Shown here: piece after piece, positions 12,587-39,500 of the stretch | Numbering within the stretch: position 1 is the first letter of the stretch | Layout of the letters: each line of letters starts with the position of its first letter | Assembly: GCA_030141605.1 (NCBI GenBank) | Contig: JAQGDQ010000013.1 | Coordinates: forward strand, 262,447-326,446 | Direction: 5' to 3' | Source of the DNA: Tubiluchus corallicola | Taxonomy: Eukaryota > Priapulida > Priapulimorpha > Priapulimorphida > Tubiluchidae | Length of the DNA stretch: 64,000 nt | The notes under the pieces: model-generated | Told to the model about the DNA's origin: nothing | Databases searched by the model: none | Seen by the model: the letters and a program-made list of their open reading frames with translations, nothing else | Program-made: the position numbers and the translations under genes

Positions 12587-15500
12587 CTAACTAGCAGTCT
12601 CGTGTGCTGTTCTTCTTTCCGCTGCCGCTCGCCTTTCATAATTGACCAGTCTTTGACCAACTAAATACCTAAAAGAATGAATAAAATGCTGAGGTGTCAT
12701 CGAAACGAATGTCTGTTTGAAGCCATGTTTCTGTATGATGTCTCCGTTTCAAGTTAACAGAAATGATGCAAAAAAATTTAAATACTCTGTTTTACAAGCC
12801 ACCACTAAATTAACAACATTATTATTACAATTAGCTGTTAACTGATAATAATCAGTCATTAAATTAGAATAATGATAATATAATTACATTATATCATCAT
12901 AATAATAATGATATAAACAATGCAGAACAAACCAAGTGTTAAAAACAATTTAGATGTTTCAGGGTAGACAGGGAAAGCAATCTGAAAAGGCTTTGAAAAG
13001 CATCAGTGTGCTTGCATAGCAAAATCGTCCATAAGTCGGCAATTAGGTCTGTCTAGCTTCTAGCTACACACATCATGAATCTCCATTTAATGTGGATCAT
13101 TTTGATACCAAGCGCATCGCTCTATGTTATTTCTAAGCTGAGATAATCCACGTTGAAGTTGAGGTGCAGGCTATGCAGTGAAAAACATAATCTTGAGAAA
13201 ATCGCTGTTAAAGTCAGCCACTGTTTTTTGTCGCGTCTCTACAAAACTCTTAGCAACTGTACGAAAGTTTGGTTGCTATGGACTTTGCAAGAGCACATAG
13301 AAGTTATGGTTAAATCCAGTAGATGGCTCTTCCTGACGAAGATTTGGGCTTGTCAAGAAAAAAAAACCTGAAGCAAAATGGTTGCTCCCATGAACTACTA
13401 CAAGAGTTTGAAAATACTTTTTTTTTCAATTGACATACTGGTTTCTAGGCAGAGAAATGGACACAGGGTTATAAAACTAATTTTTTAGTATTTTTTGCAC
13501 ATTTTCTTGATAATTTGATGCTAGAATATAAAGGTCCAAAATATTTAGCATTTGTTTTTATAAAAAACAAAAAAATAACATCAGACCAAAATTTTGGGAC
13601 ATTCTAACATCATAACACATAACAATGCCGACTTGTTGACAGTTTTGGTTTGCAAGCACACATATGTAATTTGTTGAAATTCATTTGTCAGGTAATTTGC
13701 AATTTATGTCATACTGATTGTCTTTTAGGTAACTGTTTGTCCAGTCCAGGTTTTTGGTCACTCCAGAATTAAAAATACAAACAGAATGTGTTTTTAATTA
13801 TGAGATGAATTTTCGAGTTAGAACAATGCACAATTTGTAAAATCCCAATACACTCAATCACCTATTTGTAATAATTTTCATATATAACATAAAAGCTAAC
13901 GCTACGTACTTGTCATTTTTAATATGCTCATAAAGCTTTTTAAACTGTTTCGCTTGGAAAATGAAGATGGCTGTAAAGAGTATGGCTAGCAGACAAGACG
14001 GGTATATCCTCCGTTGTACTAGGTGCTGTAGCTCATCACTGCCACCTATAGGCAGTTATAATAAACATTAATGCATATTGCACAAAAAACAAATAAGCAA
14101 AATCTGCATAATAGACAACAACCTCAGTGCTTTTTATAAACGTTTTTTGTATAGAACGTATTTGGTATTAAACAACTAACTAAAAGCAAAATGCTTTAGG
14201 CAAACTTTCAGATTTCTTGCATATGATTATATTTTATGATGTGTAGACCAGGGGCCATCCACATATAAGGATATCAAATAGGGTAGCTAGATGGCAGGAG
14301 ATGTGATAACACCATTATAACGCAAGGTCGGTACATGATTTGGTCAGTAGGATATCGTTATCTGACTTCACGCTTTTTTCACCAAGGCCGACTCAGTTTT
14401 TTCATCAAACCAGGCAGCTGCCTAGGATGCCAAGTTTTGGAAAAAGTTCTTTAAGCTTAACTTTAGCATAAATAATAATGTAATGTATGTGTCATTGCTT
14501 AAGTGCACAAAACTTTAATTTAATGAAAAAAAAACTGCATGAGTTATTCTTCTGACAAAGTTTGTGTCACTCACGCTAAAGGCGAACCTCTCTTCCCACA
14601 GCAAAACACTTTCTACTTTTGCTTCACTTAGCTTCTGAAGATAATGTCATTGAGTGCTGTGTTACTGAGTACTGAGTACTGTGCATTACCTTGCTTTTGC
14701 CCAGTTTACTTTGTATACAGAGAGTGGCACAGAAACTCTTTCATTTAAATAAAGGTTTCTTGCTATAGTGTTTAATTAATTATAGCAGATAAATCTATAA
14801 GAATTTAAGCTTTCAGGAGTGTAATACAAGAAACAAAAGGCAAAAAAGCTGCCGGACACTGAGCAGCAAAAAAATTCGCTAATGAATTATTTCCAGACCA
14901 GAATTATAGCTGTGAAGGTGATGAAACTAGTGAAATGGTATATATGAAAAAGTGAAGCCAGTGTTTCAAAAGTTCTGTGATGAAAAGGCTGAGTGAAAAT
15001 CTAACCAAGAGTATGAACATTGTATACAAAAAGAGCAGAAAATGCAGAAATTCTGATTGTTCCTGAAGACCAGGAACATGCATGGGATCATAATTTCAAT
15101 TTCCAATGAAATTAACATGAGCTGTAGATAGGTAATTAACAGTTAATAAGTACACTATAATACATGATGTAAGCATAGGTAATATTATACTTTATTACAC
15201 ACAACAAGAATTCAATTTTGTGGGTGGGATGCGTGGGGAATGGTTGACAGTTGAGGAGGGGGTGCTAAAAATACTTTTGTCTAGCGCGTCTTACTACTTA
15301 GAGCCGCTACCTGTTTTTCACATGTGCGTGTCAGTAGCGGATAATTGTACCTCCCAATGCCAGCAGAAACCATTGACGGCTTCCCGTTAAATAACACAAG
15401 TGATATTGTGGCCTGTCCTTGGGAGGTGGAAGCGTACAAAGTGTACAAAAAGCTACATCGATTGGGGTATATGACAACGCCACTATAACACAAAGTAGGT

Positions 15501-18500
15501 AGACCTCGAAAACAGCCGAAAACTTGACGTCATTATATGCGGATTGCACCCCATTCCTAAGTGACTTTTCAAAATTAGTCTGTATTGTATCACCAATTTT
15601 TTCATTGTTTGCTTATTCTATTGGGCCACATGGTTTTTTAAGCCCCAGATATCTCAGCTCTGTGTAAAAACAATGTGGTAATCTTTATCATAAGATATGG
15701 TTTTTAAACATAGGCAAAAGGTGATTGGAAATTTGGTGTCTGCTCAATAAGTGAGTATTTTTGTTGACTGTGATAACACTGGTAAGATATCAAGAATAAT
15801 ACTCTAAGCATGTCACGAACTAGCTACAGATGCTTTAGCCACGTTCAAGTGTGCACACGTCTTCTCTCAGTGATTATTCCAATCGTAAAAGACAAAAATA
15901 AGAAAATCACAGTCAGAAGTAATTACAGGCCAATAGCACTCTCCTCAGTGTCTAGCAAACTTCTTGAAATCTTAAACAGGTACAGCCATTTACTTTCGTT
16001 AATGCCAAACCAATTTGGTTACATTGATAAATTAGGAACAGAAATGTGTCTGTACACCATGAAAGAGGTCATTTTAATTCTGAAATGTTTAAGGTCATAA
16101 ATGGAATTCGCCAAGGTGTGAAAATGTCTCCTATTTTATTTAATCAATACTTTCGAGATTTAAGCATAGGTCTTTCATCAACTGGTTTTGGTTGCCAATT
16201 TGGAAATACATACATTAATCACCTGGTTTTTGCCGATGATGGGTGTTTAACAGCATTGACTACAATAGCGGATACATATGTCCACTACGGAGACCTACAG
16301 TGATAAATGTCGAAAAAACGAAATTTCTAACTATTACTCTCACTAGTACGCACCAGTTCAGTTTTCGGTCTGTTAGTGCAGCTGGTAGCATAATTCGTCC
16401 ACGCAAAACTGAGAAATACATAATTTCTGGAGATAATAGGGATGATATTGATATTATTAGGCAATAATTCGTCCACGCAAAACTGAGAAATACATACTTT
16501 CCGGAGATAATAGAGATGATATCGATATTATTAGGCAACAAAGCATTTACTTGGTTATAGCAAATATAATCATGAGAAAATTTTGTCATTGTGCAAATAG
16601 GGTTAAAAGTCGTATGTTCGATTTGTATTATAACTCATGCTATGGAATGCAACATGGCAGCACTTTTACAGTTACAGTTTAACTAAACTTAAAGTAGCCC
16701 ATAACATCTTTAAATGGGAGGTATTCAATATATTCATATGATGACAGTGCTAGAACTATTTCAGTAAATCATTATGTTACTTACCTTGATGTTGTATATA
16801 GAAAAATGACTTACAGTTTGTACATGAGAGTAATTCATAGTTCAAATTCATTAATTAAGAGCATTATCTGAAAGTGAAGTGGCTTTCACGTCTGACATTA
16901 GAAGACAGTGGAGGGAGTTATTATATAGAAATTATAGTGCAAAGCATAGTAGGATCATTTATTTCTGTGTGTATAGTATAAAATGTTGTAAATATTACGT
17001 AATTGTGGTGTACATTTTTTTATTCGTGCGTAACTATAAATTTGGTTCAAAATCAAACGTTAAATCAAATCAATCAATGACATGAACAGTGTGAGAGAAT
17101 ATAAGCTGAGAAATGAAGCTGTCCAAAAGCAGTTTCTTGTGGCTGCTTTTCATCCATTTACTGATCAGACTCAGTGTACCTTAGCTTTGGTCACAAAGTG
17201 CATATCGTGGCCACTCTGCTATTCATCACGTCTCCAACTGGTAAAACATAGGCATGGAAATGAATACGAGAACTTTATGACAGGAAGAAGGTAGGTAATC
17301 AGCTTAGCTTCTGTATATGTGTGGACATACAGCGATGTACTACTATTTTATCTATACTCATTTTCATACTCACCTAATAATGGGACTATAGAATGAGCAG
17401 TGACGTATGGAACAGCTAAAGCGAGGCCAAGGCAAACAGTTACAGGCAGACACAACCGCCTCAATATGTAAGTGAGATTCATGTTTCTGAAGCCATCATT
17501 ATAAACCTGTTACAATAACACAATATTATCAAATCACTGTCATTGTACACCTTTTACAATATAGCATTACCATTATCATACCAGAACATTTACAACAAAA
17601 AAAAATATTAAAATATTAATAGCTATACAGCATGTAATTATATAATGCTATTACATCACTGTCACTATATAACTAGAGCGCTAATGCAGTATAATCACAA
17701 GACCACTGTTTGTAAGTTCTTGCGACACTGCCCTATTCCTATCACTGCATATTTACAGGGTATGTGCAACATCACTCAGGTTCCAAATACCATTATATAC
17801 TAGTACTATATCACAATACTATCACGTCATTGTACATTTTTTTGTAAAAATGTAGAATATTTCTACATCATTTATTATATAGCTAGCTCGACTATGCAAT
17901 TCTATCACATGCCCATTAATTCTATAAATACTGTAAGTTTGCAACAATTCAATATTTTTTACCACTCTTTGTAGTTGTTCATGGGGTACACAAACAAAAA
18001 AAACAATCAAACATCCCTCATTACCTGTTCAATGACCTGTTTCAACCACCAGTTTGGACCCATCATTGTCATTGCACACAAGATCTTCAAATGTAACACC
18101 CCAAGTGCCCAGTCCTAGAAAAGCAAATCATTTATGCACACAACACATTCCGGACATTTTCATACACAATCAATTTTTTTAAATAATAGTGTGAAAAAGG
18201 GTATAATGTATTTCAATAAGATGTTGGTAAACTAATACAGCAGTATCAGTACAAATTATAAATCTTAGTCTTATTATTTATCAATTTATAAATTTCATTT
18301 ATCAATAAAATTATAAATGATAAAACAGCATCAAGCACATTTTGAACATTTAGTGCAAAGATAGCATAAGCACATTCCATTTTTTACTTCTTAATGGGTT
18401 TCCACCCCGCACGCTTTCTATAGTGACAGTTCATTGAATGCAGACTGCAAATTTCTGAATGCATTTCCTGATAAACATATCCTACCTGCCAGGGAAAGTA

Positions 18501-21500
18501 GATCGGAGTCTGATTGAGTGGAACACGAACAGGAGCTACAACTACCTGCTCAAACAGACACCCCAACAGCAATGGGACAAGGCCGATTAGCACTGCAGCT
18601 GCTATTACAGACTTAAAGAGCTGAAATAAAGAATAAGAATTAATTTATTTGCAAACAAACTTATTTTTGTATCATAAATTACACCAGTTTGATGTCAATA
18701 CAGGTGCCACATTTTTATTTAAAATCAAAAATGTTGATGGTGACTAGGGGTGATATGTATCGGAATTTCAAGATTTTAAATTCGAATCACACTTGAATTC
18801 AGCATTAAAGACATTTGAATAAATTTTAAATTAGTAATCTCGAATCAGTAGAAGCAAGTAGTCCGTTTTATTCAGAAGAATCATCAGTGGTAAGATCATG
18901 CATATTGCTTGATTTTATTCTATCATAACAACTATAATAACTTGTTAAAGAAGTTACAGAAATTTTCTGTGTACACAAATAATGCCTAAATTGTGCTGAC
19001 TGCATGATGTTTATAAACTTCAAATCGATGCACAACTTTATATTATAGATAAAACTTACTACATATGAGCTAATGATCCAGTTTTTCTCTTCTTTTTTAG
19101 TTTTGACATTACTGATGTAAAGTAACTGCATTTTGTGTTCTTTTAGTTTTGCAAGAAATTTAACGCTATAAATACTTTTACAAAGTGTAAGCAAGTGAGT
19201 GTGCATGCAAACAAACTGTCGAACAAACAAACAAGAAAGTAAACAAGTAGACACATAAACGAACATGAATGCGATTCATTGTCCCAACTAAGTTGATAGA
19301 GAAAATAAACAAATGAATAAATAGATAAATAAACAATTTACACATTTTAAATTTTTCTTTAAACACAAATTCTTTCTCAGTTAACATGCAGATGACATTT
19401 CCTAGACTCTATAATTGACGATTTTCTGTTTGCTGAGAAGCTGTGAGGAAACCATCAGCTATTAACCTGATTAACACTAGAATCGATACAAATGTTAACA
19501 CAGTTGTCATATTTGCAAAGTGGTGCGTATTTATTCCGCAATCCAATGGCCTCCTTCTATTATGTACAAAAACACCATGTTTAGTTTCTGGGGAGTGTTT
19601 CCATGGCAACCCTGACTGCTTTTGTTTCAGGTAAAACAGTTTTGTGGTGATAAAATACCTGACAACGCATGTTGATCATTTACATGTGTCTCAGCTCAGA
19701 ACTTTGAAGTAAATGTGCAAATGATCATCATTTAAAGCTGTTTCATGCATATATCGGGACATGTGAATTTGCAAAAATGGGTATAAAGGCAATGCTTGCT
19801 ATTCTAATGCTTATTTCATCTAGGCATCAAGTGACAGCAATAAGAATAATTCTGAGCAACAGAAATTCCTCTCCCTTCACGGATCCACTGCTGAAAACGC
19901 TAAGTAGCTTCCTTACGAATGAAATAGGTGAGATAGTTAACATAACCACAACGAATCTTGAAGCAGAGCTGCAAAATGGCTTGTGTAATGAACGAAGTGC
20001 CAGTCCCTCAGCTGTGGTTGACATCAGTCGAAATTCTGACCTTTACAAAATGGCTTCATCCACAGCTAAGGAATTTGAGGTGCCCTTTGTATCATACCAA
20101 CCAGAAGAAGAATGCAGTGAGGAAGCCGAGATTGCAGAGAACTTGGAAGTCATAAGTTCACTTCCAGGTGAACCAGTGGAAGTAAAAATGCAATCACCTC
20201 CTGACACGTCTATAAATGCTATAATGGACATCATCGATAATGAAGGCCTTGACAATGCTGCTATGTTTTTTGATTCTGAAATAGTGAGCACAGATGCCGT
20301 CTACAATGAGCTAGTCGCACAACTTCAGATTCCATATATTTTTCAAGAAATTGTTGACAGTCACAGCATTACTAAAGAGCAATTTGTCATGGTAAAAGAA
20401 AGTGCCATAGAAAACATTTTTGTAGTCAGCAGAATTAAAGAGGCAAACCGCTTAATACACACAGGACAAGAATTCAGAATGCTGTTATCAAATGGCTTCA
20501 GATGGTATGTTATCACTTTTGGTGAAGGAACTCTCACGCCATCTGTTGACCTTGATTACAATTACAACACTACAGTAGTACACATAAAACCCATTAAGGC
20601 ACAGCAGATGCTTCATATGCGTATGGCTAAAGAATTGGAGGCACAAAGAATTTTGGTTACTGATGATCCACAGTACATCTGGTATACTGACCTCCTGACC
20701 CACACGACAAGAGTTGTACGTCAGCTCAACAGAGAGAACAAACTGGCACAAAATCGAAGCAATGAATGTAAAACTAAACACAGCACTTCAGCTGAGTTTG
20801 GCAAACTGCAGACAAGTGATCTAGTCAGGGCATTTGAAGACGTAAATAGTAGAGACCTGGCTTATGGACTGTTCCAGTGCTTACCTAATGCAACTTGTTC
20901 TCAAGATACTCCTTTTGAGCTCTACAGAGTGTCACTGAAATTTGGAAAACAAAAAAGTAGATACAAATCTTTGGGAATCTGGTCAGTTTCAGCAGGACTA
21001 AGAAAAACATCAAACAACTCCTTGCTCACTATCACGGGGAAGCGATTTTACAAGATCACAACCGACATCGATGCGAAACCTTTCATGATGTTAAAACCAA
21101 ATGTAAATGTCAACAGCACAGGCAATGATGCTTATATCGGTTTCTGCAAAGACATGATAGATTTAATGGCTGCTGAAATGAATTTTAATTATTATCTGTA
21201 TGTTCCTGATGATGGTGAAGTGGGACGTCAATATGACAATGGGACATGGACAGGAATGGTACAGGAACTGATAGTTCAGAATGCAGACATGGCAGTTTCC
21301 CCGTTTTCTGTTGTAGCTGAAAGAGAGGCTGTCATCGACTACACAGCCCCATTCTTTGAACAAGTTGGCATACTGATCTCGATGAAGGCCCCTTACTATG
21401 ATAATTCACTGCTGAAGTTTGCTAACGTCCTAGAAGGAAAAGTGTGGATTTGCATAGTGGTTGCACTTTTTGGAACGTCCATCATACTTTGTGTGTTTGA

Positions 21501-24500
21501 CACCTACAGTCCATATAGCTACCAAAATAATAAAGAGAAATATGTCAATGACAACGAGAAACGAATCTTTACTTTAAAGGAAAGTATGTGGTTTTGCATG
21601 ACATCACTTACACCACAGGGAGGTGGAGAGGTGCCAAAAAATCTTTCTGGTAAATTCGTGGCAGGAACATGGTGGATATTTGGATTTGTCATTCTAGCTT
21701 CTTACACAGCAAACTTGGCAGCTTTTCTTACTGTTCAACGCTTTGATGCATCAGTGAAATCTCTTGATGACCTCGTTAAACAACACGATGTTAGCTACTC
21801 TGCTTTGCAAGGGTCAAGTTCAAAACTCTATTTTGAAAGGATGAAGGACATTGAGTACAAATTTTATGAGATTTGGAAAGACATGAGCCTAAACATTAGT
21901 GCAGATCCAGCACAGAAAGCCAAGTTTGCAGTCTGGGAGTATCCACTGAGCGAAAAATACACACGTATATGGAACAACATGGTAAAGACTGGGTTCCAAA
22001 ACACTGACGAAGAAGGTTTTGCACAAGTCCGAGCTAGTGAACAGGGGAAGTTTGCCTACATGGAGGATGCAACTATTGTCAACTATATGGCTGAAACAAA
22101 TTGTGATCTAATTGCTGTAGGAGAACAGTTTAGCAAGAAGCCATATGCCATTGGTGTATCCAAGGGTTCACCTTTAAAAGAGGAGTTATCAAATGCCATT
22201 CTCAAGCTACAGAGCGAGCGTAAACTTGAGGAACTAAAACGCAAATGGTGGAAGGAAAAGAGTACTTATTGTCCCTCAAAGGACAACCAGAACAACGGGG
22301 TTACCTTCTGGAGCATTAGAGGAGTTTTTCTTATTGTGCCTATTGGCATTGTTCTCTCTTTAATTGCATTGTCTTTTGAGCACTGTCGAGAGCGACCAAA
22401 ATTAAAAACTACAGCCATCCAGCCCATCAGCATCAAGGTAAAAGAACCAAGTCAGGATGTTAAAATAATTCGATATTGATCTTTTATGCTGTATTGGCAT
22501 TATGCAGTAGCTGTCTTTTTACGAAAATGTTGGCAGAACGTCTTCTGTAATACTCATGTACGTTGCCACCTCTTGTAAACATGGTCTATTAAGTTTTCTT
22601 ATCAAATGATCAAGGGCCACTCAGAACTGTTCCTTACAGCAATCACAAAAATGACATAGTTAGAAATGAAGTAATATCAATGTAACAGTGCCATGCATTC
22701 AAAAATTCCAATTCTTGAACAGTTTACATTATGACAATCAATTTGTACAATTACGTTACGTAGGTGCTAGGCACATGTAATATTAAAAAGGTAAATTCGT
22801 AACAGCCTACGAGTGATACTAAAGTAACAAAATGTTTCTACATGATGTCACAGGACTTTTGCACTATACATTACGTTACATCAAAGGACATTCAAGTTGT
22901 AGTGCAGTATGCATGTATTTCGTTATGCTGATAGCAATTGTTTTATTTTCAAAAGTGAAATTAAGTTAGGAATGTCTCAGTGACATATTGTCCTGCGAAT
23001 GCAGCAAAGCAAGTTTTTTTTATTTTAATAAAAACAAGAAATACTACAATGGTTACAGTCACAAAAGAACAATTAGAAAAGATTACCAGACACTTGGTAG
23101 CAATAACAGTTAAATCGATCACAGGTTTTTCAGAAATCAAGAATGCATCATTAATTTTTTTAAATCGCTTATACACAGGAACTGACACGAACTCTTTCTC
23201 TGCCCAAGTGGGTCAAATATAATATACATGGTAGCAACAAACGAAACAGTCTCATTAGTACGCAACACACACCTGAAACACAATGCACAATTATACCTAA
23301 CTCAAACAGAAGTTAAGTACACTGGGGTGTAACAATCGTCAAACTTTTAAAACAATATTACTTAAATCTTGAATTTTCATTTTACTTTAGAAAGAAATGT
23401 GTATGTTTCTATAAAGTCACTAGCTAAGGCAAAAAACAAGCAGCAACAATTTTTGTATTCGAGTAACAAACTCGCATAACAACAACTATATAAAAGAAAA
23501 TATAAAGATAAACGAGCATTTCCCACTACTATAGTGAAAGGTCGGAGTTGTGTGTAATATTTGTTCATGCTGGATTGTCATGTAATAGTAGCACTCTTTG
23601 TGCACTTTAGAATTATTCAGAGTTCCAAAATGGCAGGTGTACCCACCAAAACGTTAGTGTTTATATTTTGTTATTTATGTTAATAAACTGTTGATAAAAT
23701 AAAGGCTAAAAATGCTCGTAAGTGAAAAACTACAATCTAATAAAAGTTCTAAAATTGACTCTTAATAGCCTTGCAATGTTAGCAATATTAAATATTTTGG
23801 CTATAATAAGTTACTTTATTGATTGTATTTACTGCAGATACAGCATCTACTGCTAATTAGAAAGTTTCTAATTAGCAGTATCTCACGATATGGAACAGTT
23901 ACTTTTTATCATCTCATAAGGAGATGAGATTAAGATTCTTCTTAATTTAAGAATTTCATCATTTTAGTGTATTTGCTTAACATTTTAGTAATTTTACCTC
24001 TTTTTCTTTTAGTTGTTTTGAAGTTTAAGTGTGTACGTCGAACAAGTGTGGAATAAACAATAAAAAATAAAAAATCCGAGTTTCTGTTTGCACCTTTCAG
24101 GCAAAAGTGCTTAGTTTCTGATATTAGATGATGATAATTTAACTAATAAAAGAAAAAGCATCGACACTAGTGCCATCTCTTGAGAGTAAATGTGATGTAA
24201 TTATGGGTATTGGACAAATTTTTTTTAATGATCAACTTTTGGGTATACAGACATTTTTGTCAAATTTAGGTTGCTGGCTCTGACTCAGTCGGCTGCTTTT
24301 TGCTAGGCAAGAACTTATTAAATAGTGTTACTTCTATTAAAACCTAGCAAACTGACTCGGTAACTGTTTGCAAAAAATTTCTTGACACCAGATAATTTTG
24401 TAAATGATTGTAGAAACAAAGTTTTAACTACATAGGCCACTTTCAAGCTTAGAATAAGTGCATAACATTTTCAAAACAAACAAACCCCTACATAAGTTCA

Positions 24501-27500
24501 AAATGAAAGGTGTTTTTAAGACACACGTACTATACAAAGTGACAGAGTCAATCGGCTTATTTAACACCAACTTCTTCAGAACAAATAATCAGTGCATATA
24601 TGCACTAATATAAAGTGCATAAGAACAATTCTAATTATGGCAAATAATCTTTGCACATAATGACAAATTGTAACTATGACAAATTATTGTACGAACCAGT
24701 AAGAACCATTCTTTTAACTTGTTATAGATGACATCTGCACCACGTGGCAACCAGCTGTAGAGTAAACCGCCAGAGCGTAAAACAATCCAGCAAACATACA
24801 GACCACAAGCTGCAGTGTATAATTCATGTATGCTAGTATCTCCCATCCATATTGCCATCACTTGCCTTCCAGTCCATACTGCAACATTAGTAATTCAAAG
24901 CAGTTAATTATCACAGAGCAAGAAATGTCAACAATTATTTTCCTACAGTATTATCTGATCGAATGTAATTTACAGGTTGAACTATTATACGTAGATGCAC
25001 AAGATATAACTTGTAAAATCACTAAATGACTCGTGTAACACTATAGCATGAATGTAAGTACAGAGATACCTGGTAACATTAAATGAACTGGAAGTAAAAG
25101 GTTGTCTTAAGTGTATGAGAAAAAAGAAACAAAATCAACACAAATCGCAAAACATCCAAGTCCAAATCCAGGCTTAATTCTTTTCTTGCACATTTTTCAG
25201 CTAATTTTGATGTCGAAATCTTACTAATTGTGGGTTTATCGTATAATGACTCTGAAATTTGTCTCTCTACCTGTTTATTGTTGTGTAACTTAATTTTGAA
25301 CTTTGTTTTGCCAAACTGTGGAATTTTCTAGTGTGAAGTTAAAACCTATTTTTTTGTTAAGTATTGTTAGATCAATGACAAGAAATCTCCCAAAACAAAC
25401 TTGAATAAAAAACATGTTCACAAAAATTGGATTTAGCGGCAATGGTAGTATACCTAACTGATACAATGACTTGAATAAAATTTTAAAAAAGTCAAGTCCT
25501 GACAAAACTGCCCATGGAGAGAATGAGAGAGTCAAGGAGACAAAGACGAAGAGCAAGAGAGAGAGAGAGAGAGAGAGACAGGAAGACAGAGAAGAGAAAG
25601 AAAAGTGGACAACAATTTAAAGCATTATCGACTACAGTTTCAAGCTAATTATGATATAAAAAATGTAGCTGTAACCAAAAATTTGTCTACTGGTTACAAC
25701 AATAATCGAGAAAACGCAGTAATATCATTATTAAAAGAATGTACCTGGTATTATAAGACATACTGTACTACAGAAGAATAACGTTGCCAGCAGCAGCAGT
25801 ATGAGTACCAAAACCTGTAGAAAGTAATTCATCAGATAGCAAAACATTCAAAATACTGTTACACAATAACAGTCAAGTCGTAAACATTTATATATTAATT
25901 ATAATGTACAGCTTTGCATTTTTATCTAAGGCATTTTAATTAGATCATTTAATGCATAGTTTATGGAGAGCTTAGCAACAAAAATCTAAACAAACTCACC
26001 CTAACTCCAAAAAAATTTGGCCGGTTGTATGGTTGGAACCCCGTTGGTCCTCCGCCCTGCAAAATTGCTTGATGCTCAGCTCCTAGACCTTGTAGTCCTT
26101 CTATCGGTGGTAATGGCTGTATATGCTGGACTGGCTCATTGCCATTAATTACGTTCTGGTAAAAAAAATTATGTATCAAGTACACTAATATTACGAAACA
26201 ATATATGGGTCTTGAAATGTTGAATATGACATATATTCTGCTCATTAACACTAAAAAACAGATCAAAAGCAGACAAAACAATTTTGTTCTAGACTCGTCT
26301 ATCAATAAGTATTGAAGATTGGCACAATGTCTGAAATATTAACAATTTTCAAACAAAACATCGCCTACTACGTATTCAATGTTTTAAGTTTTCGGATTGC
26401 AAACATATTTGCACCAAAAACGTGCGTCAGTCTTCTACACAGTGCTTGGTGACTATGCACAACTAGAGATTAGAGAAGACAACTCACATCATACTTATAA
26501 ATAATAATTATTAGATAGTAAATAAATGCTGAAAAAATATGTGTAGCATTATAGAGGTTTCGGTATTTTTAATTATGAACTATGATGAGTCTATGACTTA
26601 TCAGATGCAGAATTAGGTTCAACATAACCTATTTGATCTATTTTTCTATGAAATTATAAAAAAATAAAACTGTGATCAGAAAGAAGACATGTAATAAAAT
26701 TCTGGGCTTGTATAAACTAAATTGTACATTGACATCGGTAGTGAATTACTATATAAACGACAATACAAGATAATGAGGATTCTAGTTTCAGCATAAACAT
26801 TTTCTTACTTCTTCAGTGACTGGAATATCCCCCAGTAGGTACGATCGCAGATTCAGCATCCGTGAGACACCCATGCACCACAGCTTCACCAACTTCTTCA
26901 TCCATTGACGCGTGTGGCTCTGCTCCAGAAGAGCTGGTAAGATGACTTGTAGCAAAAGGAGCTCCAGAGACAGCTCACTTACTGGGGCATCGCTGAAATA
27001 TGTATATTTATCTGTCAAAAGTTCTACCAATGTTTGACAATGATGTCTTTTAAGAAATATTATGAGAAGTATCATCAACAGAGGTTATTAGAAAGAAGAA
27101 GCCAGTTGCAATATTAATGCTGTAACTTAATTTGCCATAAGCTAGTATGACAAAACTGATGTTACTATTAGAGATAACCTCCATTACAGAAGGAACCTTA
27201 AAAGTGTAAGTTATACATAGTAGGTGTTGACTCTCACTTAAATCTTTACCAAATCATTCACAATGTCTTTAATCTTGCAGGATGAAACACGATATTTTAA
27301 AATTACTTTATCTATCTATAGCAAACCAACATGTCCGTGAAATTTTGTAACATTGTTATAGTTCTTGTAATGGAAAACATTTTAACGCATACAAGTTATC
27401 AAAAATTATTATAAACAGGTTCCTCACGAAGTCTTAGTGCTAAAGTAGAGTAAAAAACCTTAAGAACATTTTGTAACACCACGGCTAGTTCTCCCTTAAT

Positions 27501-30500
27501 GAGACTTTCAAATATCTTTGTTGCAATTACGAAACTAGACATATTATAAATGTAAGCTGAGGTAAATAATGAAACACTTAAACAAAGCTGTATGGAACAG
27601 TTTTAGAAATGTGAGAGCTCATGACATCAGACAATACATGGCTAACACTTGATTTTGTAAATCTTTTGAAATTCTCATGCTAACTTTTCACATTGCTTTG
27701 GAAAGTTTTTGTATTTGATTTATTTATTTATTTTTCTCTTTCAAGTTTGTTGGAAATTTGAAGTAAGGTAATGCATGAAAAGTTCTTGTGTATATTTTCA
27801 AAATAACAGACAAATTTTCTTTGTAACTCTTTAAGATTACCGAGCCTTTTAAAAGCAAAAGAAAAGAGAAGTACAACCAACCTAGGTAAGGAGACGTGGT
27901 AAGGCAGAAACGAAGTAAACACTGCTTTAATAAATAGCACGGGTAACCAGAGCATTACAAGAACAGTTGACCCAAACAAAACCATTGAAGCTATTATTCG
28001 TCGGCAGTGCCTATGTGTAGGCAAATGTATCATCTACAAAACAAGAAGAACATAATAATTATGTACATTATTCTTTTGTATGCAAATCTAAGTCATAACA
28101 GCTAAAAAGAATACTTAAAAATTTAACAACAATGACTTAATCACAACAATGCATTATCCTTTTAAGCAAATCATCAAAATTAAATTGCAAAACTGCACAA
28201 GTAAAATGTCAACACTTTTTATTGTATAAGACATTTTTTCACGCTCTCTAGAGTCATCCCGTCATTGAAAAGTTATTTTTGTGTTTGACGTACACTTAAA
28301 ATACACAACTGTACACCAGCAATTTGGTACAAATATGGGCAAACTTTTGTACACCCTAAACTATCGGACATTTAAAGAAAATTCTTGAATTTTGGTGCAG
28401 TAAACTAGTTTACTGCAAAACCTCTTGCAGCATAATAGACAAATACGTACTTCTTGTATAGGATTAAAATTTGGATCATTTAGGTTTCGAAGGAACCACA
28501 AAACTCCGGGTCGCAGTACTTCTCTCAGGAGCAGAATGAATGAAGCAAAGTAAAAGACGTAAATCATTCCAACCAACCAGTGAACAAACATGGTGGTGCC
28601 CGGTGCTGCTTTGAAGTTGGTTAAGCGATCATCCAGTGACGCATCAAATAATGGCTGAAGAGAACAAGAAATACATTTTAAACAGTTCAGTGTAAAACAA
28701 AAAAGAGACTATATCACTTTTTTGTAGGCCACTAAAATGTATAATGTAAATGAAATTACCATTACGTAACAGAAACTTTATGAAATATCGGATAGATAAT
28801 TTTGCCATATCACTTAGACGCAGTAGAAAACAAGAGTTCCATGCTGCTGCTTGGTGAACGTTTTTAATAGCACGATTTCTGAAAATTAGGTGATTGTTAC
28901 ATGCCATTTTAATGACAAAGTGCATGAATAACCGACTTTTACATAAGCAGACGTTTTAATCAGGCAGAAATCGAGGCATGTTTAAAAGAGTTTGGCATAT
29001 GAGCGGTACACAAACCTCATAGTTAGATACAATGCAAAAATTAACCTCATTCCATATAACATTAGTCAAAATTTTAAGATACTAACATATGTTTAATTTT
29101 TGAGTTCCATTTCTGAGCCTTAAATGGTTAGTTGGGCCACTATCTGCACAAAAAATAAACTGCAGCTAAAATCAGAACAGGCAATTTTTATCTTTAAAAA
29201 CCTCATCATTTCTTTTATCGATAATCTTGATCTTCCTGAAAGTTATATTATCGTTATGTGCAGAGACCTACATCTTTGATAGTGCTTTCGGTGACAGTCA
29301 CTCATGAAAAACCCAAAATTAACCCACTTTAGCCTGTCATACTGACCATTACTAAATTTGTTAAAAACTGAATTTTGTTTGAAACTGAAAACAGAAATTT
29401 CAGCAACATATCATTTGCTCATAATTATTTACAAAAAATATTTAATATGAAAAATGACGAATGTGCATTCATGAAATGAAAAACAACCAAATTTTTCTTA
29501 ACTGTTGCCCAAATTACAATATGCTAACTAAGACCAACTACCGAGCCTAACACTTTTCTGCTGGTGTATTTTTAAAACCATGGCTCATGTGCTTCAAAGT
29601 TATCACTCACTAACGAACTTGAATTTTTAATGACTGTATGTAAACTTTGTAAAATGTATCTGTAAATAGTATACCTTAAATCATAATTACAATAACTAAC
29701 AGTGCTGACTAATAAGCAACATTAGTTAGAATTACAACTTACGAGAGAGCAAATGTCTAGCCACCATCCACACATTAATGGAAACATTCCAATCTCTATG
29801 ACAACCAGCAGAGACACTTTGACAACAATGTAGCACATTCCTATTATTCCTTTTATCCTGTAAATATAGTGTTTTTATATTAGATGAGCAAATAATACAT
29901 TCCATACAAGTCAGCACCTGAAATGTGTTGCAGAGTTTTCTTCTTGAGTGTCTGTGGCTAATGCTATAATATCTTTGAGCTTCATTAACAACTGAAAAAC
30001 AAATTTCAAAGAGCGTTGGTCTGTGTGCTGCAGCTTCACACAATTTATAACATGACATGGGTTAACTGCAGAATAGGTTAACTGCCATAGGTTAACTGCA
30101 GAGATATCCTTTTCGACTCTGGTAATTGCAGACAAACTTAGGATTTGTTTAACAAAGATGGAAAAACAAAAAAAAAGTGTGGGGAGATTAAAAAAATTGG
30201 ACACATTACTCACTCATGTTGATTTTCAAGCTTAAGAAATGATAGAGCACAGTAAGTTTTCGCTTAATGACGTTAATGCATTCCAGCAAAATATAAAATG
30301 CAGCGAAAAGCTGTTAAATGAAGACATGTCTTCCTTAGAAAATGACGTAAATCTGCAAGGATGTGTTTCAACTGTCATGCTTTGATCATATCAACCAACC
30401 ATTTTATGAATTTATTACTGACATTTACATGTTCCCTTTTCATTAAACATATCCACTTACTATATAATTTGCAGGTAAAATGATAACAATTTCTGGTGGT

Positions 30501-33500
30501 AAAATTTAATGTTATGCTAATTTTCAAATTTTAGACGCAACTGTCCATTCTAGTTTCTAGACAAAAATGGGTATAGATTTTCCTTCAAATTTTAGATGGA
30601 ACTGTTCATTCTAGTTTCTAGACAAATATGGGTATAGATTTTTCTTCCCGTTTTGTCCTAGCTGCCCTTCCATCCAGCAGCTTCAGTGCAAATAAAAATA
30701 ACTGCAACTGCTAACTCTAACATATGGGTGGGCATCTGTCAGCCCAGTCTTTTTCTCAGACCTGGATTGATGCTGAACAATGATCAACTTCCAAGCTACT
30801 AGCTAACTACATATTTGGCCCTACAAGCTAAATTTCAGACCATCCATGCCTTTAGTACATTATTTCATACAGACAGTGGATGCTATAGCAACAAGCTGCA
30901 GAAACAACATGCAGAATGAACACATTAAGTAGCATTCTATTCTATTAGGTAGCTGGGCATGACCTATGCTCAGGCAGAATAACAGCCTGCAAAACAGGCA
31001 GGCATTGGCATCTTGCATCATCTAGTTTTTTAAATTATAGCACACCAGACAACATTTTAGCACTTCAAGAGCATTTTATAACCGCATTATGCAATGATCA
31101 ACTTCTAGTAGGGACAACAACTCAATGTTCAGTAAGTAAATGGGTGGGAAAATTGTAGTCATAGCAAATTGTAGCTAAATACAACACACTCAAGTGCAGC
31201 CACATTGCATTTTTATTGTTTACTATTTATTTTTTCCACAACTTTCTCCAGAGAATAAAGTTTCGTAAACTATCTGTTCTAAATACAATCATAATTGTAT
31301 AATAAGCTTATCGTTATTAGAACCTTAGTTTTTTAAAGCAATAGCATAATATGCTGTTCATTCTCCAATATTTAAAGGAAAGGCCAAAGCTTCTGGGAAG
31401 TCAAGCTTATTCAAGAGTTCTGAAAAAATGTTAGGCTTTAATAATAAAAGTGTGATAAGCACTTTTCATAATTAGTAAAATCACTTTTAAGTAATGATCA
31501 TTTCACACTTGAGAGCTCCCATTTGAATGTCCATTCTTCCACCAATGACATCATTCATCTGCTGAAGAAAAGCAGTGCACTGTCAATTTCCGTCAAAAGC
31601 ATAACAAGTTTTCACAGAAAACTAGATAGCTAATTTTGTGGTACTTCTGCATGTTCATTATGTATGCTGCAGAAGTGTGAATTAGTCGAAGCCGCACACT
31701 CTGTTGGAAAGCCATGATGTGCTTGCGAAAAGTCACGAAGTCTCCCAGTTATGTTATAATTTTAAAGTGAATGGTGGCAGTCACAGCACCTAAAAATTTC
31801 TATACAGCGGTAGTATAAATTCACTGTATGCTACGTAAACAGACTTTTGGCAAATTTCTTTGCCATATTTTCCTAAGTTTAAGTGATTGCAAATAAAATG
31901 AACCCAACATACCAAGTGAACTGTCCTTTCCTTTGCAAGAAATTGCTTTCTTTTGTACATAGGCTAATTATACTTATTACACTTATTATTTGTACTTAGT
32001 AATGTAAAACAGAATGTAATTATTACTGGAATTACATACTTTAAAACATTTGTTATAGATGCTAGTGCATGTATGAGCACAAGAACGAAGGCTATCAGTA
32101 GATATCCGGTAAGAGTTGTCAGTAAACCTTCAAAACTTGACACAACAAGCTGAAAAAAATAAACATATCACAATTTACGTTAATCGAAACGTATCCCAAT
32201 TTTCAAATATTTTACTAAGGTGTAAGTACTATCAGAGACATAAAGATTTCACTGTCAAAACAGTAATTTGTGTAAATGCTAGTTTTAAACTGAAAAAGTA
32301 TCTAGATTCATGTGTACAATTTTAAAGTTTAGTTAAGGTTTTTTAAATACATGTATACAAAGATGATGAACATGTAAATACAGTAAACCCTCATTATAAC
32401 GGACTTCATATATAACAGACTATTTTTGCTTGTCCGAAATAACAGACTACACTTTAATTATGCCAGATAGGTCATTAATAGACCATTTTATCATTCACTA
32501 AACATAATGTTTGTGTCACAGTCATTAGTGTTTAAGAAGGAAAGAAAGTACACAATCTTATTTGTTAAACAAAAATTGAGCTGGCAAGCTGCTACCAGTT
32601 TCAAGCCTGACTTATCACAGCTCTAATGCTCTGCACTTTTCACACGTCTATAAAAGGCATATGTCTTCACTTAAAATAAGCAAGCATTGCAGAATATTGT
32701 GTTCATATGCATGTGCGTGATTTATGATATTTAGGCTAAAATATACAGTACCAGAGTATCTAAGTGTCACAAATTACTTATTGCAACTAGACTAATTAAC
32801 TACTGGCCATAGTAAACAGACCTGGAAAGAGCCCAATTATAAGTAACTGGAATGATTCTTCATTTTTTTACATTAATTAACGTAAAACTGCCAAATTCAT
32901 GTCCAGTTATCATGATCTCACTTGTTATTTGATTCACAAGTTATATAATTTTTTTCAGGAATTTCTCCCAGTCTTGGAGTGACAACTAGCTGCAGTGCTC
33001 TTGCTTATCATTAAATTAGCAGGTTCAAATGCCACTAGCTTAACTCATCAATTCCAGCATTTGTCTGACTTTGACGCCTAAAATATTAGTTGCAGTTATA
33101 CTGCTAAAAGAAAGTATGTAGTGAACACATACTTATCAACTGCTGTTACATCATTTTGCTTTACGAATTTACTAAATATTCTTAATTCCTAACTGAGTTG
33201 TTATTCTTAATTTAATGTTTTTGGAAATTTTTAGAAAAGAGAAAGCAGGAAAGATAAAAAAAAGAAAGAGGAAAGCACAAGAATAAATTTGTGCATGGCT
33301 CAGATTTAAAACATATTATCTGACGTATTTTTTAAACACAGAACAGAAAATGTGTGTCAGTAGCAAATCAAAATCAACATCTTCGTTCCTAAACAATACA
33401 CACAGCTTGCAAACAGTAGAGTCTATCTGTCAATTCAATTTTTTGTAGCAAAGTTAAATTTTTAAATTATCATTCAAGGGAATTCACAGAAATTTAGTAG

Positions 33501-36500
33501 ACCAAGCATTACATTATATAGCTGAAAGATCCCAACTACTTTTTTGATGGTACAATGTAGTGCCCCTAGCCCAGATTATTGAATGACTGCACAGGCAGCA
33601 TGCATATTGCTCAATTTGACTACTACAAAGAGCAGTGGAGAAACAACCTTTTATGATCACTTCTGCAATAGATTTGCACTAGGCATCTTATTAATATTTT
33701 TAAACAGACTCCTGTTACGCTATCTACAGAAAGAAAATACTCACATATTCTTGAAGTTTGAACCCAACTATTGTAAAATGGCCAATATGGTAAGGACAGA
33801 AAGCTGGAAAATAAACAAAAATTATATTATTGCATAGCTAAATATTGTATAAATTTCCAACAAATATGTGATGCAGTACATTTTTACTTTTAGATTGCTA
33901 ATTACATCATCATTTGCTTTTAAGCAGCAAATTATTAAAACAACAATTATATTTTAAAATATGAAAAGAAAAAGTAGTGGAGACTTTTATTATCAGACTT
34001 ACCAAACACCAAGATAAAAAGCGTATTGAGTGATATCACCCAGAACACATGCTCCTAAATTCAAGAAATAAAAGATTTCAATCATGTATTTATAACCAAA
34101 TACCACAATATTAAAATATTAAACATGTTGATGCATACATAGACATGAATAATTCAATTTGAGTACTGGTGCACTAAATTATCTAAAAAAATGACACGGA
34201 AATATTTTAGACTAAAAAATATCAAAAAATAATTTTTGTCATGTCAATTTTATCAATAAAAACTGTTCTTACTGTCTGCTACAAGTAACAATGTAACGAT
34301 GTAACTTTGTAACAAGTTAGAATGCAGCAATTAACTAGAACATAATTATAATTATTCGACTGCTTAATGCGTAAATTTCTATGAAACCACCAATGACTTA
34401 CAAAAATGCACACGCTAATAGATAAGTGCTATATCTTCTTAACTTACCAAAAATACTAAAGATCCATCCAAACCAAGCAAGCGCTCCCAAGTGAGCTCCT
34501 CACCCGCTCTGTCCCATTCAATGGGATTCCAGTTATTATCATCTATTGTGAATAAAAGTCACTAACAGTCAAATAACAGTGGTCAGAAAACTTAAGTAAT
34601 TTTAATGACTGAAGATATAGGAACAGCTGATGCAATACATAACTTGGCCAAGATGAGGCTTAATAATCATAATTTGAAATTTTAAATCGTAACTGAATGC
34701 AAGAAACTTGTCACGTTAAAGAAAGTTTGGAGTGAGATTTCTTGAATCCACAAACACAAGTTACAGCTCTCTAAGTTAGTAGAGCACCTTATTTAGCTAT
34801 CTGCTCTCTAAAGTGCTAAGCTACGCAATATCGCTTATAATGTCCACAAGACATTTCTGCAATACATCTACAACAATACTGGAAGCAGCATTTTAGACAT
34901 GAGGCTGTACACTAACTGACATAAAATCTATATAATAACTGCCAAAAGAAGCAGCACAAAGTTAGAAACATAATGGAATTGCCAAAAGACTTCATGCGCA
35001 GTTTTTGGAACTGGGCTACTTGCTAACACTTTTTTGTCATTTTTTACATGATATAGAAAAATGAGCAAGAATACTCATCTTTTTTAAAGGCATAATGCAA
35101 TGCCAAAAACATACGCAAAACACCTAATAGGACAAGAAACTTGGATCAAATATATTTAAGACGTACTGTAAAAGTGCAGCTTACTGAGTAAAAACTGGAT
35201 AGCTAACAGCTTGACAAGAAGTTAAGTCAGAAGGAAAAATGAAACAAAAAATCCATCCGTTTCCATTACCTTGGTTGTCATCAGCATTGTTTACTACGGC
35301 AGCATTTTGCTGTGCAGCTACAGCTGGAACATTATCGCCTGCTTGTGCTTGACCGTTGCCAGCTTGCGCTGCTACGTTAACGGCAGCTGCCACATTGCCG
35401 TTCTGCAATATATATTACACTAGTGGGTATGGAATTATGTGTGGAAAAAAATTAATGCTGCTTACGGATAATACACTAGTTGCATTGTCCACCTGTTCCT
35501 TTCAGAAACACGGTATTTCAGTTAAAATGTTAATTTAATACACAATCACTTTCTCACAGTGCAAAACAGGTTCTTATTTGTTTATAAGTTCCTCCATTTA
35601 AGCTGAACTCTTTACATTAATTCCTTAAAATTGCACAGCAAGAATTGTATATGACAAATATGAAAATAAAAATGAGCAGTCCTAAATTTTCATAATTACA
35701 CAGTTAACTGCAAAGATTTTATCTTACTAACTACATAAATTGCACCATTTTGTCGAAATTGTGTAAGCTGAATAGAATGACTGCATAGCTAGCATCAATA
35801 TAGATAAGCTGCATGCATGCCTGGGTTACAGGAATTGTACGAAAGTCGCACACAGGTACTAAAATTATGCTTGCAGTTAAGATCTTTGATTATATGTACG
35901 TTGGTTATGATGGGAAAATGAAAAACGCAGGCAAACAGAGAACTAAACAACGTCGTTACCTGATCTTGACCATCAGCATCAAACGGCATTAGCCACTCGG
36001 GTGCACCTCCATGCAAGATCTGTTCTCGAAGCCAGACGAGACTAATAAATGCACATAATGTGCACATAACAATGAAACAACCTTGGATACAGTCTGTTAG
36101 CAGATGATCCCTAAAATGGTAAAACATAACATTATGTGGGCAACTAAACTGAAACATGCTGCATAAAGTAGGTAGTCATAACAAAATAAGTACTGCTAAT
36201 TAATAATGTCAGTTGATAATATCATTGATCTATGTTTTTAATATGATGAGAAGCAAAACAAGGAGTTTGTTGTCATACTCACGTGGAAAGCATATCAAGC
36301 GGCAGCGTCAAAAGAGAACTCACTGAACCTGTGAAAAGACATCGGTATATCCTGCAAGCCATCAGAGGGACAATACCTAACCATGCAAATGCGACTAGTG
36401 TGTAATGCAGCCAGTATCGTACGGCTGTAGCTATACTGGTTAGTAAACCGCTCACTATGTCTTTGATAGGCAAGCGCTTTGGCATATCTGGAGAATAAAC

Positions 36501-39500
36501 TGCAAAAAAATAAGTGTAGTTGTGAAAATTCCTTATCTATATGATTGCTAAAAGTCAAATTTTTGTATTATGCAAAGTAGTCTAATATTAACAGTACTAA
36601 ACTTGTCAAATTCTTGTATTATGCAAAGTATTCTAATGTTAACAATACTAAACTTGTAAAACATGCATAGTATTTATAACCTGTGATTATAGTGTTCTTG
36701 TGATTCTTACATAAAAATGCAGACCTATATTTTTCATTTGTCTGAAAAATTAATTTTCATACTTCTCAGCATTTTAAGTTTAATGCTTATTTAACTAGTT
36801 CACCAAATTCTTTTCACTCTACTTTAATTTCACTAACTTTAAACACTATATGGCAGTTTTACGTTAAGAAAACAATAAACAAAAGTACTCGTGACAAGAA
36901 AAATATTGTTAATTTACCATCTCTAGTGAAAATTTATATACCTAAAACAGTGAAAGTGAAGTGTTAGAACTAAAGTGGCTACTATGATACTTACTAGGTG
37001 TGAAAATAAACCTGTGCTTGCAAAGCTCGCAATATTCTTTCTTGCTGTACTTTAGCCATTGCAACAAACTAAAAGCACAAAAAGCATAAAACCAATTTTA
37101 GAAAAATGGTGATAACTGGTAAAAACTAAGTAAAAGCTATGTTTTAATGAAAAAGTTCCTAATCACTTTTTCAGAAGAGACAATGTGCTTATTTCTGCAC
37201 ACAGTTTTGTACTTAATGATAAATATTCAGCAAATAATAAATTTCATCTCAATAAAATGACAAGCACTTTACACTGCTAGTTTACATTAACCACTGCTAC
37301 ATCATCTCGTCGTCGTCGTCGTCATCATCATGATCATGATCATAATCATTATCGTCACAATTTTCTTTATAGTCATAAAAATAAGATTATCTTCTATTAA
37401 AATTATCAGTAGTGAAATGTAAGCTACTCTACCATTCTTGATGAATGAATTTTATGCTGCCTGTGCAGATGCAAGGATGATACAATGGCCTATCTTGTGT
37501 ACCTTCCGACCGGCAGACTCTGCAAATATCTATAAAATAAAAAAAACAGAATGAAAAGAACCATAACTGCTGAAGTCAAAATTTATATATATATATCTGT
37601 ATGTAAATATATAATTCTACCTTCGGTCTGATGTCGTCAACCAATTACTAAAATTCATTTTTTCGAAATTTTATGCAAAGTGTAAAAAACTCTGAAAAGT
37701 CTGCCAAAAACCCAAAGAAAGCAACTTGATTACTCCTGAAAAGGTAACTATTAACCAGGGGTCACGGGTCATATATTAAGATAAATCCTACCAGGACAGT
37801 GTGCCCTGTGAGTTTCGTGACCCTAGCCTTATGCGTGTGCACATTATTAAAGAAACAAAAATAGGGGGAATAATAATAACAATAATAAATAAAAACAATA
37901 AAAAACCGGGGGTAATTAGTGAATTAATTTTGCCAGTGGAACAAATGAACAACAACAATATCTGAGCCTATGGTAGAAAAGGTAAAAACATTAATTACAT
38001 CAAGTGCACATGATGTACATAATAGCCTTTGAAATGTTATAAAATTCTTTGAGGCACTATACACTAAACTTCTGAATGTACCTAATTTTGGCTCAGCAGA
38101 GAATGCTTTTTAGAGAGAACACTACTGCTTGTGGATCCTGAACATTAGCATATGACGCTGTGATAATCATGTAACATTTTTTATAGATGAAGGTGTGCTT
38201 TGTATGTGCTATTTGGATGACTGGTCAGTGGTTCCATCTGTTATAATTGAAAAGAAGCAAAATAGTCTGTCATATTTTATGCACTGGTGCTTCCAGCACA
38301 TAGTATTTTTATAATACATTATTAATACAGTGTGCAAACAAATTTACATTTACTACTGTCCAAGAATAAAACGTACAGCAAGTCTCTAGCTTAACGACTT
38401 CCTGTTTAGCGATGTTTCATTTTAACAATGCTGAACATTTGACACCCTTTTCACCCAAAGACACATGTTTCATTTTAACAACGATTTTTTTACTTTGCCG
38501 AAAGCCAACTTTCATTTTATCGACAACTTTTTTACTTAAATTGAAGGATTAAAACGGCAAATATTATGTTATTCCGTTTTAAAAGTGCATTAGTAATGTA
38601 GACAATGCAATTATTATACATGTTTTCGCTTCCCGACTGACTAGTATACTAGCTGCCATTTCTATCACGCGAGACCTGTGAACAAACTTTGAGCAAAGGA
38701 ATTCTACCTGCAACCTGTTCCTATAGCAACCAGACTACATAGTAAATTATACAGTGCTGTTGTACGATAAAATTTTCAAGGTCACCTAATGTAGTATTGG
38801 CTTTGACTCTGCAGTGTTTATTGTTTAAGGGCTGCATAGGCTTAAAGTTTAATGAAAGAGAAACTGCTAACTAGGTAAGTATTGGTAAGAAAGATAGGTG
38901 GTTTCAAGCAAGCAGAAAGAAATTAATTAATAGAAACACTAAGGAAACTCATAAAACTTTTAATTTATAGGATTTGTGCACCATTGATTTTTGCCTCTGG
39001 AATGTATCTCAGTTCTATTACTTTTTATGGAAGGTTTGGTTTCGTTTAACGAAGTTTCGCGTTGCATTTTGCTGGAACGCATTAGCGTCGTTAAGCGAGG
39101 ACTTACTGTAATACAAATTCTATACAAGGCAAAGTGTAAACTAAGCAGTTACTTTAGCAGTTAAAATATAAATTAATAAAATTCAAAGTGAAATTTGATA
39201 AAATGCAGCAAGTCACTGTTATAATTATTTAAATTACCCGAATGCCTTAATGGTAGCCAAAATCAAAATCATATAAATACCAACATAGACTACTGATCCA
39301 AAAAAATGAAACTAATGCTGACCAAAGCACAGGTAGGAGGCTAAAATTTCGTTATATTTTGCCAGAATCTAAGCAGAATCCGGCCATGACACGTTATTTT
39401 TCAAAACACAAACTGATAAACAAATAGGCTGGCAGTGGCACCGCTATACAACATGGATATTTTTACGACTTTAGCTTATGGTATACTTAGAAATCGGTTT

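Follow-up and report, generated by a model that had tools for sequence, protein, structure and literature searches.

The IR25a co-receptor occurs throughout the protostomes (PMC2924276). It carries a co-receptor extra loop (CREL, an insertion in S2 as defined in PMC6472016) with a single NXS/T sequon, and both are described as absent from tuning IRs (PMC6472016). The genes that code for IR25a are described as having multiple introns, variable in number (Croset et al. 2010, PMC2924276). Retroposition was proposed in 2010 for the single-exon IRs of insects, the parents of which were beyond recognition (PMC2924276).

The gene considered here lies in a stretch of 64,000 nucleotides of Tubiluchus corallicola DNA, which was analysed as a whole and is termed the window. 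Like IR25a, and within the same clade, it codes for a receptor with the same order of domains, the R/D ligand positions and a CREL with its sequon. Unlike the known IR25a genes, it has no introns, its ATD is strongly diverged, it is nested antisense, and it coexists with a canonical, intron-bearing Ir25a. We consider it probable that the window gene arose long ago as a duplicate of Ir25a by retroposition, was inserted antisense in an intron of MARCHF6, gained its own promoter and was kept as a working receptor subunit.

The nested receptor gene and its host

The coordinates of the features are collected in Table 1. The open frame extends over positions 19708-22479 of the forward strand; counted from its first ATG at 19777, it comprises 900 codons followed by TGA, and this start codon is paired in the alignment with an ATG of a second intronless copy (C1428, see below). 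At the local base composition, 900 open codons would be expected by chance with a probability of about 1e-27. Pfam identifies Lig_chan (1.6e-39) and Lig_chan-Glu_bd (3e-29) in the protein, and its nearest PDB structures are GluK3 and GluA1, i.e., kainate and AMPA receptors. The frame scan and the Lig_chan matches thus bear out the uninterrupted 900-codon iGluR frame reported in an earlier note on this DNA. The positions that contact glutamate are occupied by R516 and D764. The CREL stays without a partner when the protein is aligned to GluA1, and the sequon N706-I-S shares an alignment column with an NDS in the intron-bearing Ir25a (C623, see below).

Table 1. Features of the window (positions are those of the window unless stated otherwise)
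Feature	Position	Strand	Basis
Intronless Ir25a-type receptor gene, 900 aa + stop	19777..22479	+	frame, Pfam, dN/dS 0.11 vs C1428 copy
Putative signal peptide, about aa 1-21	19777..19839	+	sequence judged by eye
ATD-equivalent region, strongly diverged	19840..21000	+	alignment to Ir25a ATD, 17-19% identity
R516, S1 ligand-contact arginine	21322..21324	+	29-receptor alignment
10-residue motif, aa 642-651, end of M3	21700..21729	+	sequence
Co-receptor extra loop (CREL)	21859..21960	+	about 34 aa without counterpart in GluN1, divergent IRs and GluA1
N-glycosylation sequon N706-I-S inside CREL	21892-21900	+	alignment
D764, S2 acidic ligand-contact position	22066..22068	+	29-receptor alignment
Conserved 5' non-coding block common to window and C1428	19443..19671	+	about 70% identity, gaps not in threes
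RFX X-box-like palindrome GTTTCCATGGCAAC	19597..19610	+	167 bp before ATG
MARCHF6 coding span as modelled	12617..37530	-	from RING exon (37433-37530) through final coding exon (12617-12668)
Host intron, 6,076 bp, phase 0, GT..AG	18621..24696	-	spliced alignment
MARCHF6 exon upstream of host intron	24697..24878	-	spliced alignment
MARCHF6 exon downstream of host intron	18486..18620	-	spliced alignment
C623 Ir25a alternative exons	14907-15039, 17087-17219, 18860-18992 of joined L003+L004		spliced alignment

The host gene, MARCHF6, was rebuilt on the reverse strand by spliced alignment, using as guide a human protein sequence entered by hand; 574 of the 896 aligned positions are identical to this guide. 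The exons on either side of the host intron are intact, as are their GT/AG sites, and the receptor frame, considered as coding sequence, lies wholly within this one intron of the opposite-strand host. The antisense nesting described earlier is therefore upheld, and the re-derived intron has exactly the same coordinates. The earlier count of 22 exons, with the guest in intron 17, was not reproduced: our model comprises 25 exons, about three of which are dubious mini-exons, and the host intron is the 20th.

Relatives in the genome and the loss of introns

The window's own assembly (343.5 Mb) was searched with the window protein. The genome contains three genes of the IR25a clade: the window gene, a second intronless copy and an intron-bearing Ir25a. 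The intronless copy (C1428:51648-54341) is full length and shows 78% amino-acid identity to the window protein. A second, intron-containing Ir25a, which the earlier note had suggested looking for, is present as an exon series on C623, from about position 607959 onward. By spliced alignment, the part of this gene that was modelled has 15 exons separated by 14 introns, although the exons at its beginning and a linker exon ahead of S1 are uncertain; the core exons are each 40-60% identical to the window protein. Two more intron-bearing IR25-like genes occur on C1408 and C2151 (L006, L005), and might be the counterpart of the mollusc IR25b.

In the in-genome tree, the five IR25-type genes are separated from the iGluRs (100/100), and the intronless pair is grouped with C623 (98/96). 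These groupings, together with the CREL and R516/D764, confirm the earlier assignment of the window gene to the Ir25a type. The C1408 and C2151 genes are sisters (100/97) outside the window gene's clade, and a grouping of the intronless pair with C1408 was rejected (AU p 3e-5). The sole outside IR25a in the tree is a Drosophila sequence entered by hand, and the branching order of the pair, C623 and this sequence is weakly supported (69/72; AU p 0.37 for the pair plus C623). Consequently, C623 need not be the direct parent of the window gene, and the retrocopy may predate or postdate the split from arthropods.

Intron positions were compared with those of C1408, C2151 and four conventional iGluR genes. 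An intron at window aa 501 (phase 0) is present in C623, C1408, C2151 and all four iGluR genes, and another at aa 615 (phase 1) is found in C623, C1408 and C2151; both are missing from the two intronless copies. Since these introns are common to the relatives, they are older than the window gene and were lost in the intronless pair. The simplest cause of this loss would be one RNA-mediated copy: we infer that reverse transcription of a spliced Ir25a mRNA yielded a copy that entered the MARCHF6 intron in antisense orientation, and that a later duplication carried the intronless gene and its 5' block to C1428. Of the two origins envisaged in the earlier note, an RNA-mediated duplicate that kept its function is favored by the C623 paralogue, the 98/96 grouping and the purifying selection described below; wholesale loss of introns from Ir25a in this lineage is rejected, since C623 keeps its introns.

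A different history, in which an ancient second IR25 paralogue arose by DNA duplication before or around the protostome radiation and was stripped of its introns at its own locus (one after another, or through recombination with its cDNA), would agree with the weak preference of the tree for C623 plus the Drosophila IR25a without the intronless pair (69/72), and with the many other single-exon genes here, including the only GluN1 found. We regard it as unlikely, considering that every coding intron is gone at two loci of one clade, which is most simply explained by a single RNA-mediated event before the duplication. A repeat scan of the host intron revealed neither a target-site duplication nor a poly-A tract, and only short, chance-like pairs; with dS at about 1, no such traces of retroposition would be expected to survive. 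Joint copying of guest and MARCHF6 to C1428 was rejected, as the 24 kb read around that copy contain no MARCHF6 sequence. The neighbor of the C1428 copy, recognised by eye, is presumably an SLC34-like gene.

Of the 150 Lig_chan matches scored in the genome, about 120 fall within frames that run without interruption for 400 aa or more (hand count). Tandem arrays of single-exon divergent IRs, about 460-490 aa in length, are found on C1556, C1241, C654, C344, C788 and others. The 14 divergent single-exon IRs that were sampled fall together in a clade of their own (100/100), which branches outside the IR25 group, and the notion that the window gene served as their seed is thus not supported. The sole GluN1 that the genome yielded is encoded by one exon of 924 aa (C2110:677763-680534; L002 2264-5035) and has a calmodulin-binding C0 segment. 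The window also contains a single-exon HSD17B4 (peroxisomal MFE-2; 51507-53396, forward strand) with dehydrogenase and hydratase domains and without an SCP2 domain. A second single-exon HSD17B4 on C1915 (751-aa frame) is 66% identical to it, and no intron-bearing HSD17B4 was found in the genome.

In the C623 Ir25a, one segment of S2 is encoded three times over, by alternative exons of 133 bp each (about 614.9-619.0 kb). All three are bounded by AG..GTAAGT and have equal phases and a length of 1 mod 3, for which reason they look mutually exclusive. Pairwise, 20-27 of their 45 amino acids are identical, and one of them is without the acidic ligand residue (D to S). The flip/flop exons of AMPA receptors lie just downstream of that S2 segment, and the alternative exon of C623 is therefore a different one. 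In our literature search, no paper was found that links IR25a with mutually exclusive exons. C623 also carries a 1.56-kb inverted repeat with 96% identity (L003 1-1564 versus L004 7517-9063), one arm of which is located 5' of the modelled Ir25a exons and the other inside the gene; by this placement, the third alternative exon is present a second time, in antisense, on the 5' arm.

Selection, candidate promoter and putative product

The window and C1428 genes were compared by the Nei-Gojobori method, which yielded a dN/dS of 0.113 over all codons, 0.187 for the ATD region alone and 0.056 for the LBD plus channel, ratios that are approximate at a dS (1.04) near saturation. Both genes clearly code for proteins that have been kept under purifying selection. 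A gene without introns might also be a recent processed pseudogene or an assembly artefact; this is scarcely credible, being already contradicted by the selection signal, with a full-length frame at a dN/dS of 0.11 over a dS of about 1, a conserved 5' block and unbroken host exons on either side. Transcriptional interference between guest and host would be plausible by analogy with the sense-nested H13/Mcts2 pair, in which transcription of the guest truncates the host (PMC13309782). This precedent and the antisense position within the host could even suggest that the nested gene is chiefly an antisense regulator of MARCHF6, which we deem very improbable in view of the strong selection at the protein level and of the sister copy that has the same 5' block outside MARCHF6.

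The 5' block measures roughly 230 bp, and identity drops to about 35-45% farther upstream. GTTTCCATGGCAAC is the sole site in the 64 kb with at most one mismatch to GTTGCCATGGCAAC, the palindromic X-box, and the C1428 copy has GTTGCCATGGCGAT at the matching position. Each of the two sites fits at least one consensus used in PMC2375033, according to which an X-box by itself predicts little and is no proof of RFX control. Upstream of the modelled C623 gene (L003), the 5' end of which is uncertain, there is no X-box with fewer than three mismatches. A genome-wide DNA search with the 5' block missed even the known C1428 block and says nothing about its absence elsewhere. Transcription of the window gene would start inside the host intron, from an RFX-site promoter, in ciliated sensory neurons. 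If the shared block is a non-transcribed promoter, the second copy arose as DNA; if it is 5' UTR, a second retroposition stays possible. A splice-site-like sequence, TTTCAGGTAAA (window 19619-19640), is conserved in C1428 and could be a putative splice site of a small 5' UTR intron.

The first 400 or so residues of the window protein are not recognised by Pfam as an ATD, with no match to ANF_receptor. The region is alignable over about 400 aa to both C623 and the fly sequence, at 17-19% identity, and is 66% identical between the two intronless copies. A four-row profile of this region gave a weak match to the GluK2 ATD (E 0.008). AlphaFold models were of little use (pLDDT 29 with two sequences and 46 with 16), and a Foldseek alignment of the latter along full-length AMPA receptors carries little weight. 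Such strong divergence may reflect a changed function, possibly a new range of partners.

As judged from the sequence, the gene most likely codes for a subunit of the co-receptor type. In the mechanism we infer, the signal peptide, the four membrane segments and the CREL with its sequon would allow assembly with tuning IRs, the pairing being made through the LBD and channel, and glycosylation of the CREL would promote export to the sensory cilia. The gene could instead code for a tuning or otherwise specialised receptor that has lost the co-receptor role, leaving that work to the canonical Ir25a of C623. The strongly diverged ATD (17-19% identity) and its dN/dS of 0.19, versus 0.06 in the core, point in this direction, but the window gene has kept the CREL and sequon, which tuning IRs are described as lacking (PMC6472016), and the two intronless copies show 90% identity across the LBD plus channel; we consider such a specialisation possible, if doubtful. 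Returning to a co-receptor role, we tentatively suggest that retroposition may have founded a second IR co-receptor line, consisting of two intronless genes with a re-invented ATD, parallel to a canonical Ir25a that would vary its ligand-binding lobe by three mutually exclusive exons. If true, the co-receptor would have diversified by two routes, alongside the expansion of more than 100 single-exon divergent IRs.

Comparison with known systems

Our surprise at the intronless window gene is moderate, because this genome has no shortage of genes without introns (GluN1, HSD17B4 and about 120 receptor frames). The unusual feature is that a co-receptor retro-line of full length stands next to a recognisable intron-bearing relative. 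A co-receptor that is usually treated as a single conserved gene can thus undergo duplication, after which its ATD is free to diverge.

As a gene with its own promoter in the intron of a host, Mcts2 in H13 (PMC13309782) resembles the window gene, the promoter of the latter being a proposed one. The Mcts2 locus is mammalian and imprinted, with demonstrated interference between guest and host, whereas the guest in the window is antisense and known here from sequence alone. The mollusc IR25b paralogues (PMC12837371) likewise represent an extra IR25-type gene beside IR25a; those of gastropods are reported to have at least six introns (PMC12837371), in contrast to the window gene, which has none. 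The single-exon divergent IRs of insects, for which retroposition was proposed (PMC2924276), are intronless receptors beside intron-rich ones, as is the case here. In the insect receptors, divergence hid the relation between parent and retrogene, whereas in the present case the paralogue with introns can be identified and the copy has its full length, such that one genome allows a direct comparison of Ir25a with and without introns.
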